Shown: positions 24,438 through 60,411 of the stretch, one piece after another
Layout of the letters: each line of letters opens with the position of its first letter
Numbering within the stretch: the first letter of the stretch is position 1
Source: Syntrophomonadaceae bacterium
GTDB taxonomy: Bacteria; Bacillota; Syntrophomonadia; Syntrophomonadales; Syntrophomonadaceae
Length of the DNA: 60,581 nucleotides
NCBI GenBank assembly: GCA_028706315.1
Contig: JAQWBP010000008.1
Location: 1-60,581 of the forward strand
Reading direction: 5' to 3'
Position numbers and translations under genes: made by a program
Notes under the pieces: model-generated
Databases searched by the model: none
Seen by the model: the letters and a program-made list of their open reading frames with translations, nothing else
Told to the model about the DNA's origin: nothing

Positions 24438-24467
24438 TTGTTACTAGTTGGCGAATCTTGGTATAAT
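24438..24467 (+). promoter_or_regulatory. Chemoreceptor promoter
   Basis: TTGTTA (24438-24443) and TATAAT (24462-24467) with 18-base spacing and a TGG just before the -10. It lies 60 bases before the chemoreceptor ATG. Confidence 0.55.
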
Positions 24468-24527: not shown

Positions 24528-27500
24528 ATGCAACATGAAAAAAATAGTAGTTACATTCGTTTAGTTTTTTTTCTATGCTTTCTAGCTGCAGGCCTACTAG
24601 TAATACCTGCAAATATGTTTCTGTGTCGTTATGATACCCTCCAGCTCAAAACCTTCTCAATAGGCGGGGCTATTCTTATTATCCCCTGTTTACTATTATT
24701 CACTTTTTATTTTTCTCGTGTAGCTAATCGGGTGATTAACAATTTGATTGAAGGAAGAGTTGAAAAAACTAATGTACCTAATTTTGCCCAAATACTTATA
24801 CTAGTCGGCGTTTCTGCCCCACTTATTATCGTTATGGCTTATATGTGGATTATAAATATGATCACTTATTACCAGTTCTGGTTTGGTGTATTTATAGCGA
24901 TCATATTTGCCTTCTGGCTGGCATCATTATGTGCTATTCTTTTATCTCGCAAACTAGTTAATGATTTTAAAGATTCCTTATTTGAACATAGCACAGTTGA
25001 TATCGCTAAAAAACTTGTAACCTGCATGCCAGAGAGTATTCTTCGTAGTTGCGGCAGCAACCGGGAAGATAATTTAAACCAATGGGGAAATTACCTCCGT
25101 GTATTTATGGAAAATAATCCTGCTATGCTCAGTGTGTATCTGGCTATGAAAGAGAATTATACGCCTGGTACCAAGCATAATATTATAGCCTGGTTGCGTA
25201 AAGATGGCGGCATCATACCTAATCATTTTAACTATAGTGAGTATGACTATTTTGATGCCAGCGATCCCTTAATGGAATGGTATAATGGGCCCTTACAAGA
25301 TAACGGCATTCATGTCAGCGAACCATACCTGGATACCGGCGGCACAAATCATTGGATTTTATCTGTAACTATTCCAGTTAGAAGTGCTACCGGTGAATTT
25401 ATTGGTGTAGTCGGTGGTGATATAGAACTAAAAGAATCGGAAGTTAAAGCTCACCAAGGTGAGAATGGGCAAAAAGATGATGATATTATTTATAATATCG
25501 GCTACTCCCTACGCTGGAAGATGTTTAGTCTATTTACTATCATTACCGGTCTCTTAGCTATTGCGCTAGTTATAAACTTTAACCAAGCAGCCGACAGGAT
25601 GGAAGATGAAGTACTGGAACGCTGTTCTGCCAGTGCACAGTTAGAGGCAGCTAAAGTCTATAAGCCGGTAGAAAAGGCGGTTAATCTCGTTACATCAATG
25701 CCAGTAGCTGTTTCCAACCTCTCTTCTGGTAATCCTCAGGCTGATGTTAGTGCCTGGAGTCAATTTATGTACGATAACGTAAAAAATAATGATTTTATGC
25801 TCAACTCGTATGTCGCTTTACGGGAAAACTATGTACCAGAACAAAAACATAATATTATCGAATGGGCTAGAAGCGGTAATGATATTACCGAGATAAATTT
25901 CGATTATAGTCAGTATGATTATTTTGATGCGGCCAATAAAGGTATGGGCTGGTATCAGCAGCCTGTAAAAGGTAACGGCTTAGCGATAACTAAACCTTAC
26001 ATGGATACTGGTGCTAATAATCAAATGTTAGTTTCAGTAACGATACCTTTTAAGGATAGAACTGGCCATTTTGCGGGAGTTACCGGCGGAGATCTGGCTC
26101 TTAACTACCTTCAGGATACTGCCAGTAAAGCTGATGTCGGCAAGTATGGCGCTGTATTAGTTATTGATGGCGATGGCGATTTTATCTATACTCCCGAAAA
26201 TCTTAAGATTACAGGAAATCTTAAGGAACATCTAAAAAAAGCTAGTGACTCTTTTAGTACTGCTATGCTAGAGTCTATTGAAAGCAACACCAATTTCAAA
26301 AAAACTGGCACCTCGAGTATTGGCGAGAAACATGTGTTTGCTGCCTCTTGTCCCCTAGGAGAAAGCGGATGGCAGCTTATTATGGAATATGATTATAATG
26401 AGCAGATGAGCAGCCTCAACCAGGTAGCTAATAATACCATAATAGTTATTTTAATCTGTATAGCCTTAAGCTTGCTACTGGCATTTAAGTTCACAGAACT
26501 CCTGAACCGGGGTATATACGCTATAGTCGATGTAACTCGAGGATTATCCAAAGGTGACTTTACCCAGCAAGTTGATACTACTTACAGTGATGAAATCCAA
26601 ATTATTTCTAATAAGGTTAATGATATGGTCGGCAGGTTGAATACCGTACTTAAACAGTCGGTAGCTGCGGCAACACATACAATATCTGCTGCTAACCAGG
26701 TAAAAGAGAACTCGCAAAATGTACAGCAAAAAACTAATACTATTGTTACTGCTACGCAGGAAATATCGGCTGGCATGCAGGAGGCTTCCGCAGCTTCGGA
26801 AGAAATTAATGCAGTTTCAGAAAATATAAAAGCAGCCGCCGAATTTATTGATGAAAAGGCTACTAGTGGACGCGAAGATGCTAATGGTATCAGGGAAGTT
26901 GCCCAGTTAATGAATCGGGAAACCTTAGCAGCCCGGGACGAAGCCATGAATATTTATAATACAACTAGTGACCGACTGCAAAGTGCCATTCAAGAGGCTG
27001 CCGTGGTGGATAAGGTTACACAAATGGTAAATCAAATTACCGGTATTGCTGCGCAAACTAACCTATTAGCCTTGAATGCTGCCATTGAAGCTGCTCGAGC
27101 AGGTGAAGCCGGCAAGGGCTTTGCTGTAGTAGCTGATGAGGTCAGGAAACTAGCCGAACAGTCTTCACAGATTTCCGAAGAAATTCAGGTCATAATTGAT
27201 CAGGTGGGTAAAGCAGTCGGCAATTTAACTGATGACGCTACCAAGATGCTGGATTTCCTGAATACCCGCATAGTTCCTGATTACGATAAAATGGTTAATG
27301 TGGCTTCTAAATATGAAAATGATGCCGATAACATAGTGACCATGATGGAGGAATTTAGCGGTTCTGCATCTGAGCTTACTCAATCTATTGGTGAATCAAC
27401 TATGGCTATTGAAGAAAATGCGATTGTCATATCTCATGGAGCGGCTAAGGCAAGTGAAATTGCCGATGACGCCTGTGCAGTCGCGGAATTACTAGAAGGT

Positions 27501-27578
27501 CTACAGGAGGTTATTAGCGGTTTAATCCAAATATCTGAAACCCTTCAGGCATCAGCTAACACGTTCAAACTGCGCTAA
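24528..27578 (+). CDS. Methyl-accepting chemotaxis protein with duplicated Cache-like sensor
   Basis: A 1016-aa receptor. Four TM helices occur at about 10-33, 43-62, 88-113 and 117-139. A first Cache-like module follows (about 160-300, ending VVGGDIEL), then a fifth TM (332-350). A second module (about 385-525, ending VTGGDLAL) and a membrane-proximal half (538-625) precede a sixth TM (635-653). HAMP and the MCP domain come last, with the hairpin [20 protein letters not shown] at 845-864. The two modules share KHNII.W, YDYFDA, WY..P and YLDTG/YMDTG. By helix counting the first module is cytoplasmic and the second extracellular. The signature identifies signalling to CheA; the ligand is unknown. 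Confidence 0.93.
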
Positions 27579-27587
27579 TCTTAAGGT

Positions 27588-27620
27588 GAAAAAAGAGGGC
27601 CGTCGGCCCTCTTTTTTTTG
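27588..27620. terminator. Bidirectional terminator between the chemoreceptor and pheT
   Basis: AAAAAAGAGGGCC pairs with GGCCCTCTTTTTT around GTC, with A and T runs on the two sides. It serves convergent genes. Confidence 0.88.
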
Positions 27621-57711: not shown

Positions 57712-59157
57712 CTACTTTATTCCAACCTGTTGGGAATAATTTTTTTTATCGATATTTCCCTTTTTTCTCTTGTCTCTGTTATGATAAACGCCGACCAAGT
57801 AGGTAATTAAAACTACTGGTATACTACAATATAGCATGTTGCGGTACTCTGCTGCCAAGTAAAGAGCGAGAATAGCAACTAGATTAGCAATAAATGCCAT
57901 TATTGGAACCGCCGGGAACAAAGGGGTTCTGAATTTAAGCTGTTCAATTGCTCCTCCCCGGGACAAATATTCCCGACGGAAATTAATCTGGCATACAGCA
58001 ATAACCATCCAAATTAAACACCCTGTAAGACCTGTACTGGAAATTAAGAATAGGTACACAGTATCCGCAGCAACTGCTTTTGTAATCAAAGATGCACAAG
58101 CCACAATAACTGTGATTAGTATTGCATTGTAAGGAACACCACGAGAATTGAGTTTTCCACACCAGGCAGGTGCATTGCCTTCCTGGGACATTGACCATAA
58201 TAAGCGAGATGATGCATATAATCCAGAATTTCCTGCAGAAAGTGCAGCTGTAAGTACAACAACCGTCATAATCATTTTCGCATAAGGAATCCCAGTTATA
58301 CCAAAGACGTGAGCAAAAGGGCTTTCCAGAACCCCTGCTTCAGTAAAAGGAATAGTTGCAGCTAATACGATAACTGCCAACCAGAAAAATACTATAATAC
58401 GAACAACAACCGCTTTCATTACTTTAGGTATGTTTTCCCCCGGATTCTCGCATTCACCTGCAGCTATGCCAACAAGCTCCGTCCCTTGAAATGAATAAAC
58501 TACAAATACCATAGTTAATAATACAGCAGAAATGCCATTAGGAAATAGACCTTTAGTTGTAATAAAATTTGAAGTTCCTAGGGCCTGACCATTGCTAGTA
58601 AATCCAAATATTAACCCGGCACCAGCAATAATAAAAGCAATAATAGCAAAGACCTTAATACTAGCAAACCAGAACTCACTTTCACCATAGGCTCTAACGG
58701 AAAGTAAGTTCAAACTCGAGAGGAACCCTGCGAAAATACCGCACCATATATATATCGGAACTTCAGGATAAAAGTTATTCATTATAATACCCGCAGCAGT
58801 AAAATCAGCTGCTATGCACAAAGCCCAGCTCATCCAGTAAAGCCATCCAGTGGCAAAGCCTGCTGCAGGTGATATAAACCTGGTGGCATACGTTTGAAAA
58901 GAGCCTGCAACTGGCATAGCGGTTGCAAGTTCACCAAGGCACAGCAACACCAGATACATAACCAAACCACCCGCCATGTAAGCCAGCACTGTTCCCAGAG
59001 GTCCTGCCGTATGAATAGTATGACCGATACCTAAAAACAACCCTGTACCAATAGTACCGCCTATGGAGATCATTAACAGATGTCTAGGTTTCATATTTCG
59101 CCTGAGACCTGCATATTCTGGGCAAAACTCGTCTGTATTTATTTCACTCTTTTCCAC
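57712..59157 (-). CDS. Amino-acid permease (APC family)
   Basis: A 481-aa secondary transporter with twelve predicted TM helices. The N-terminal cytoplasmic LRRNMKPRHLLMISIGGTIG and TM1 GTGLFLGIGH contain the APC substrate-binding unwound helix; GELATAMPVAGSFQTYATRF is typical of the AAT subgroup (LysP, ProY, GabP-like). GTG 59157 follows AGGAGG. It lies downstream of the racemase-like gene, so a cationic amino acid such as lysine or ornithine is plausible, by inference only. Confidence 0.9.
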   Translation of the reverse strand: MEKSEINTDEFCPEYAGLRRNMKPRHLLMISIGGTIGTGLFLGIGHTIHTAGPLGTVLAYMAGGLVMYLVLLCLGELATAMPVAGSFQTYATRFISPAAGFATGWLYWMSWALCIAADFTAAGIIMNNFYPEVPIYIWCGIFAGFLSSLNLLSVRAYGESEFWFASIKVFAIIAFIIAGAGLIFGFTSNGQALGTSNFITTKGLFPNGISAVLLTMVFVVYSFQGTELVGIAAGECENPGENIPKVMKAVVVRIIVFFWLAVIVLAATIPFTEAGVLESPFAHVFGITGIPYAKMIMTVVVLTAALSAGNSGLYASSRLLWSMSQEGNAPAWCGKLNSRGVPYNAILITVIVACASLITKAVAADTVYLFLISSTGLTGCLIWMVIAVCQINFRREYLSRGGAIEQLKFRTPLFPAVPIMAFIANLVAILALYLAAEYRNMLYCSIPVVLITYLVGVYHNRDKRKKGNIDKKNYSQQVGIK

Positions 59158-59304: not shown

Positions 59305-60411
59305 CTAATCAGTAACAAATGCTTTCTCAATACCAGGTGAATTACATGCCGCCAGAAGACCAGTATAGTCCAGTTCAAAAGCAACTATATCTCCTACCCG
59401 GTATTGGATATCGCAGTCTTCCAGGTCAATTAGAGTATGGTCACTTGTTTGTCCCATAATCTGTACCTGAGGATCTACCGGCCAGATGTTTTCTGATGGA
59501 ATATCCTGTCTTCCAAATGATAGCAAGGCCCGTTTACGCGTACCGTGGTCTTCAAAATGCTTGCTCTGTAAGAAGGCATCCACACCCAGTTCCCCCACCG
59601 GAACAGTAGGTTTACTATTGAGTTCAATGATTTCGCCCTTAAGCACATATAGATTGGATACAGCCCGGTTTATATCCATATCTGAATGATAATATTCATC
59701 CAAATATTTCATGCTTACATATTCCATCCCGTAAAGATGCAGGCCCCCTATACGGAGATGATTTAATCCTTCTGGCCAGATGCCTTTGTCTATCAGATGA
59801 TAACTGGTGCAATTACCGGCAGATAAATACTGGAATTTAACACCGCAGGATTCTTCAATTTCACTGGCTAATTTCCTAAAAGCTACCCCGTTTTTAACCG
59901 TGGGAAGAGCCGTACCGAAACAGTTGAAATTAGTACCTAGGCCATAAATCTCCAGGTTAGGAAGTGCTTTTATTTCATTCACTACAGCCTTAATTTCATC
60001 TTTATTCTCAAACCAGATGCCTTCGCGAATATCGCCCATGTCTATCATTAACAGGATTTTATGAGTCTTTTCCTGTTTTACTGCTTCTTGGGAAAGAGCA
60101 CGAATTACTTCTATTTCCGAGTTAAGAGAGATATCTGCGTATTTAACCGTATCTTCAATATCACTCATGAGCGGGCTACGCAGCAAACATTTTTCACAGT
60201 CAATATTCTCTATTTTCTTAAGGTTGGAAACCCGGGATTCAGCTACGGTTTTAATGCCACCACGTACAATTGCTTCGGCAGTTTCGGGTAGACCGTTGAA
60301 TACTTTGTTAACACCCATAACGGTAACACCGACCTTAGCCAGATTTCTTACCTCTACCCGGGCATTATATTCTAGTTTTCTTACATTTATCTCTAATTTA
60401 GGATAACTCAT
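59305..60411 (-). CDS. orr: Alanine racemase-like PLP protein, probably ornithine racemase
   Basis: A 368-aa PLP enzyme of the alanine-racemase fold. The PLP lysine is K36 in VMGVNKVFNG. ESRVSNLKKIENIDCEKCLLRSPLMSD, VKYADISLNSEIEVI and KTHKILLMIDMGDIREGI resemble the ornithine racemase of amino-acid-fermenting Clostridia, which makes D-ornithine. AGGAGGT precedes the ATG. The nearby amino-acid permease may import the substrate, but a general racemase role cannot be excluded. Confidence 0.8.
   Translation of the reverse strand: MSYPKLEINVRKLEYNARVEVRNLAKVGVTVMGVNKVFNGLPETAEAIVRGGIKTVAESRVSNLKKIENIDCEKCLLRSPLMSDIEDTVKYADISLNSEIEVIRALSQEAVKQEKTHKILLMIDMGDIREGIWFENKDEIKAVVNEIKALPNLEIYGLGTNFNCFGTALPTVKNGVAFRKLASEIEESCGVKFQYLSAGNCTSYHLIDKGIWPEGLNHLRIGGLHLYGMEYVSMKYLDEYYHSDMDINRAVSNLYVLKGEIIELNSKPTVPVGELGVDAFLQSKHFEDHGTRKRALLSFGRQDIPSENIWPVDPQVQIMGQTSDHTLIDLEDCDIQYRVGDIVAFELDYTGLLAACNSPGIEKAFVTD

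Follow-up and report, generated by a model that had tools for sequence, protein, structure and literature searches.

Cache domains have been reported to be the most abundant extracellular sensor domains in prokaryotes and are described as having evolved for extracellular work; a Cache placed inside the cell is unusual, this sensor type being almost always found outside. In agreement with this view, 78% of Caches were confidently predicted to be extracellular in the survey of Upadhyay et al. (PMC4822843), with the YkuI_C and Diacid_rec families principally intracellular, so that the premise of the sequence-only reading of this DNA (i.e. that Caches are almost always extracytoplasmic) stands, with a few intracellular cases known. 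Our own literature search for cytoplasmic or intracellular Caches found one relevant case, an actinobacterial stand-alone dCache (dCache_1AM) described as intracellular (PMC10104139). Hybrid chemoreceptors with periplasmic and cytoplasmic sensor domains are mentioned in a review (PMC8396549), and the open-access literature searched yielded no account of a chemoreceptor in which sister Caches occupy opposite faces of the membrane. Intracellular Caches and receptors with inner and outer sensors are each known already; the combination described here is new, and rare. It is predicted for a receptor encoded in the window (the whole stretch of DNA analysed, 60,581 nucleotides of a Syntrophomonadaceae contig).

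Domain organisation of the receptor

The open reading frame at 24528..27578 (forward strand, as are all receptor features below) encodes a methyl-accepting chemotaxis protein (MCP) of 1016 amino acids with two duplicated Cache modules, arranged in the order four transmembrane (TM) helices, module 1, TM5, module 2, TM6, HAMP-like segment and MCP signalling domain. The topology model described below places TM1 to TM4 at residues 12-33 (24561..24626), 43-62 (24654..24713), 89-112 (24792..24863) and 117-139 (24876..24944), with corresponding AlphaFold2 helices at residues 2-32, 37-74, 83-108 and 114-151; TM4 passes directly into the helix that forms the stem of module 1. This inner, predicted cytoplasmic module (residues 154-305, 24987..25442) comprises the distal half of a dCache only, and is separated from module 2 by TM5 (residues 332-349, 25521..25574; AlphaFold2 helix 328-373). 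Module 2 contains, from Pfam and the topology calculation, both dCache halves between two TM helices, the membrane-distal half at residues 416-530 (25773..26117) and the membrane-proximal half at residues 531-619 (26118..26384). TM6 (residues 637-653, 26436..26486) leads into the HAMP-like segment (residues 667-705, 26526..26642), which scores 16.5 bits against a Pfam cut-off of 25, the segments after the last TM helix of the G048 and G044 homologues described below scoring 22.7 and 21.7 bits. The signalling domain (26643..27575) matches PF00015 at E 4e-30 (best stretch 821-965), retains the conserved hairpin tip and has solved relatives including 2ch7.

The Pfam family MCP-like_PDC_1 (PF22673) matches the receptor twice, at residues 188-302 and 416-530, and the first match (1.8e-17, 64 bits against a cut-off of 27) identifies module 1 as a member of the Cache family by profile. 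The best dCache_1 stretch is 453-619, and both dCache halves are found in the second module only; the dCache_1 match of module 1 is partial (positions 71-153 of 240) and under the cut-off.

The gene stands alone, with pheT and pheS downstream on the opposite strand. A Shine-Dalgarno sequence, GGGAGAGG, rated good, was read directly 5' of the ATG, and an intrinsic terminator with a strong stem (GAGGGCC-GTC-GGCCCTC followed by T8, 27595..27619) was likewise read between the receptor gene and pheT; it is absent from the pattern-scan list, probably since the stem ran on into the T run. The scan also gave a possible promoter, TTGTTA-18-TATAAT with an extended -10 (24438..24467), sites of this kind being no commoner in the region than in shuffles. 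Elsewhere in the window, an alanine/ornithine racemase-like gene and an APC-type amino acid permease gene, both named by eye, adjoin each other on the reverse strand (59305-60411 and 57712-59157, respectively).

Duplication and fold of module 1

The sequence-only reading had proposed that residues of about 160-300 and 385-525 are duplicates. An ungapped alignment of the two modules spans 148 residues at 42% identity (E 2e-46) and contains the motifs YDYFDA, WY..P, PY[LM]DTG and GV.GGD, common to both, which excludes a chance likeness. Both carry a common insertion of about 20 residues, have lost the arginine that precedes WY, and group in a clade (support 100/100) that leaves out nine other Cache modules from the family; inside this clade, modules 1 and 2 separated (support 82/58) before the window and G044 lineages diverged. 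Between species, module 1 copies are 42-52% identical and module 2 copies 48%, figures that rest on three members only.

Module 1 ends at about residue 302, only some 30 residues before TM5 starts (332), and is therefore a membrane-distal dCache half lacking the proximal half, as had been supposed; a full dCache_1 is found for the second copy only. Structure prediction, which the sequence-only reading had named as a check, was run on residues 1-374 using AlphaFold2 (mean pLDDT 67, three sequences), and gave four helices, a PAS/Cache-type sheet and a long TM5 helix, i.e. a Cache-type fold between the helix bundle and TM5. The module 1 model matched extracellular dCache ligand-binding domains (McpX, Tlp3, the uracil receptor and others) at a Foldseek E of 3e-8, with a Z of about 14 on VIA-align alignment to such domains. 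In this model, which is of moderate confidence, module 1 has a PAS-like Cache fold. For the N-terminal four-helix bundle no convincing PDB or viral match was obtained (E above 0.1 in Foldseek; Z at most 9, among unrelated helical bundles), and no Pfam or NCBIfam family was found, though its fold may still be a known one.

Homologues and distribution

A homologue with the same architecture was sought and found in genome G044 (L014:169-3225, 1018 amino acids), from the same taxonomic family; since the full layout recurs there, an assembly or frame artefact is ruled out as its source. A second homologue, in G048 of the same family (L015:3924-6161, minus strand, 745 amino acids, PF22673 at 186-300), has the order four helices, module 1, TM5, an 18-residue loop, TM6, HAMP and MCP, without the outer dCache. 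The inner module is the sole Cache sensor of this protein, in which TM5 and TM6 form a hairpin and, if both helices cross the membrane, thereby leave that Cache on the cytoplasmic side with the signalling domain. Because the sequences that border the gap can be aligned with those bordering the dCache in the other two proteins, the comparison suggests that the outer dCache was deleted in G048, the direction of change being uncertain with three sequences.

The N-terminal module was present in 3 of the 54 genomes of the family (the window genome and those of the two homologues), with no further member in the whole order/class set (63 genomes), in phylum samples of 348 genomes and of 398 genomes (the latter drawn twice, with overlap), or in the plasmids, phages and viral contigs searched. 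Within these searches the four-helix bundle occurred nowhere outside the family and never without module 1. A scan of genome contigs returned one ordinary two-helix MCP. Cache homologues of about 1000-1040 amino acids were considered as further two-Cache receptors and rejected, those translated being two-helix dCache proteins with other outputs. Two dCache-TM-HAMP proteins of about 1025 amino acids (L065:1705-4785, plus strand, and L067:273-3347, minus strand) run into a CheA-like part with HPt-like and ATPase-like motifs and a C-terminal CheC/CheX-like stretch, as judged by eye.

The window genome (G000) encodes CheA and CheW, the partners of the receptor, together with CheB, CheC, CheD and a flagellar cluster (all but CheA and CheW named by eye), this flagellar and chemotaxis cluster, at C74:106001-126000 (locus L059), looking complete; Flagellin_N had no match in this genome, which is rated 99.9% complete. 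Four MCPs were found in it, the receptor included. Another of the four, a soluble MCP on contig C63 (L062:2585-3733, minus strand), begins with a sensor of its own that is duplicated in tandem (E 1e-19, 32% identity over 102 residues) and matches no Pfam family. Genome G048 contains, on contig C35, a soluble MCP of about 285 amino acids (L066:3-839, plus strand) in which an N-terminal, NAD-binding Rossmann-like part (GFO_IDH_MocA 1.4e-4 and NAD_binding_3 1.7e-4, both just below cut-off) is fused to the signalling domain, and which may possibly be a redox or metabolite chemoreceptor.

Membrane topology

Topology was calculated with a hidden Markov model of our own writing, with hand-set composition tables and with and without a positive-inside term. 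Six helices, at the residues given above in the numbering of the window protein, were computed in the receptor and in both homologues, confirming the earlier count of four helices before the first module and one between the modules. Module 1 was placed inside at P 0.96-0.997 in the three proteins with the C-terminus fixed or free, and at P 0.66-0.999 over 27 runs (three proteins in nine settings, including zero charge bias), the lowest value being that of G044, in which TM5 is the weakest helix, under the harshest setting. Membrane-near lysine and arginine residues number 13, 16 and 14 in predicted inside loops of the three proteins against 3, 4 and 1 in outside loops. As a control, ordinary Cache proteins of the same family gave, in the same calculation, a Cache outside between two helices; module 1, predicted cytoplasmic in all three proteins, departs from this typical extracytoplasmic placement.

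The MCP signalling domain is cytoplasmic; TM6 accordingly puts module 2 outside and TM5 returns module 1 to the inside, whatever number of helices precedes it. An odd helix count ahead of module 1, previously proposed as grounds for placing both modules outside, is thus not decisive, as TM5 and TM6 fix the side from the C-terminal end, and the side of module 1 hangs on TM5. Accommodation of module 1 inside and of module 2 outside is strongly predicted by the model, in line with the sequence-only reading; the prediction is the same for three proteins and is sharpened by the G048 homologue with its missing outer module.

Proposed mechanism and alternatives

The duplication, the fold, the helix count and the conserved architecture are established by calculation. 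The receptor is, on balance, probably a six-helix chemoreceptor with two sensory inputs, the bundle with its predicted cytoplasmic half-dCache and the outer dCache, which share one CheA-controlling output. The N-terminal four-helix bundle would anchor the half-dCache at the cytoplasmic face; TM5 would cross the membrane and carry the full dCache outside, and TM6 would lead back to HAMP and to the signalling domain that controls CheA. The part TM5-dCache-TM6-HAMP-MCP is a classical receptor, with bundle and inner Cache as a front end added to its first TM helix, and we read the whole as the fusion of an inner sensor resembling that of Aer with a classical dCache receptor facing outwards, of which the G048 homologue would be the pure inner-sensor form. 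Below the membrane the inner sensor would be tied to TM5, which would itself run on outside as the long helix that opens the outer dCache.

In such a receptor the inner module would most likely bind a small molecule present in the cytoplasm and belonging broadly to the class of the outer module's ligand, and so bias the same output; for ligand binding by the inner copy our confidence is moderate. The signal route, and any joint reading of inside and outside, we put forward only weakly: the inner module might act by moving TM5 or by docking on HAMP in the manner of the Aer PAS domain. The simplest function would be a metabolic reading added to an environmental one, and a single receptor that combines two inputs is plausible given that only four MCPs were found in the genome, alongside a che and flagellar cluster that looks complete.

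A different possibility, which we consider unlikely, is that module 1 is cytoplasmic but senses no ligand, the bundle instead sensing a lipid, a quinone or the membrane potential whilst the inner Cache dimerises or relays, as in class IIIm. Module 1 has no known ligand, and the bundle, always found with it and only in this family, is a well-defined predicted fold (AlphaFold2 pLDDT 85 and pTM 0.78 when modelled alone); however, bundle identity among members is only 24-30%, below that of module 1 (about 42%), the inner copy is conserved as well as the outer, and its pocket residues W251, Y252, Y267 and D298 do not vary among the inner copies of the three sequences. A pocket tryptophan, aromatic, tyrosine and aspartate are common to modules 1 and 2, whereas the stretch that reads TN.W in every copy of module 1 reads NNQM in both copies of module 2; the modules have therefore diverged near the pocket strand and still share these four residues. 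The dCache_1AA amino-acid sensor motif has R126 (PctA numbering) two residues before WY (PMC10104139), a position occupied by M or F in all five module copies, which thus lack the motif. Traits of dCache_1AM are seen, namely an insertion upstream of the pocket, the lack of R126, the aromatic pair and the final Asp, with equivalents of R103/D133 and M215/S217 not confidently placed.

We are more doubtful of the idea, close to the gradient sensing originally envisaged, that the sister sensors bind one ligand on both faces and report its inside/outside ratio or difference, the cell steering by uptake versus supply.

It is distinctly improbable that both modules are extracytoplasmic, with TM5 not spanning or the N-terminal part inserted otherwise. 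Such an arrangement would suit the placement of Caches in most proteins (PMC4822843), and TM5 of G044 is only moderately hydrophobic (Kyte-Doolittle 19-residue maximum 1.69), but the posterior for TM5 in the window protein is 0.92-1.0 across all settings, the inner end of TM5 is bordered by positive charges in all three proteins (LRWK, MKWK and LRRK), and the TM5/TM6 hairpin of G048 leaves module 1 cytoplasmic. That module 1 is a functionless leftover of an intragenic duplication, as its missing membrane-proximal half (present in module 2) might suggest, is very improbable, since a copy kept in three lineages and conserved as well as module 2 is not a decaying one, and G048 has module 1 without module 2.

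Comparison with known systems

If the two-input reading is correct, an inwardly placed, duplicated Cache that stands alone in a relative would mean that the domain can revert to internal sensing within a transmembrane chemoreceptor, and this natural pair of sister sensors across the membrane would provide a test case for how one kinase complex merges metabolic state and environment. The closest described systems each share part of this arrangement. Class I dCache_1 chemoreceptors (PctA, Tlp3, McpX and the uracil receptor, 9hvj) have the same TM5-dCache-TM6-HAMP-MCP layout, and their membrane-distal half folds like module 1; unlike these, the window protein has a four-helix bundle and a second half-dCache in front, the latter predicted to be inside. 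Aer-type (class II) and class IIIc receptors combine a cytoplasmic PAS-like sensor, a membrane segment, HAMP and MCP, as does the G048 homologue, but here the inner sensor is a Cache rather than a FAD-PAS and follows four TM helices, in place of the cytoplasmic N-terminal sensor and one hydrophobic patch, followed by HAMP and MCP, that define the Aer-like class, and the window protein adds an outer dCache. Hybrid chemoreceptors (PMC8396549) likewise feed sensors on opposite sides into one signalling domain, whereas the sensors here are duplicates of one domain, the inner one a Cache. YkuI_C and Diacid_rec (PMC4822843) and dCache_1AM (PMC10104139) likewise place a Cache inside the cell; as described, none of these belongs to a membrane-spanning chemoreceptor that carries a sister copy on its outer side, which is the arrangement predicted for the window protein.
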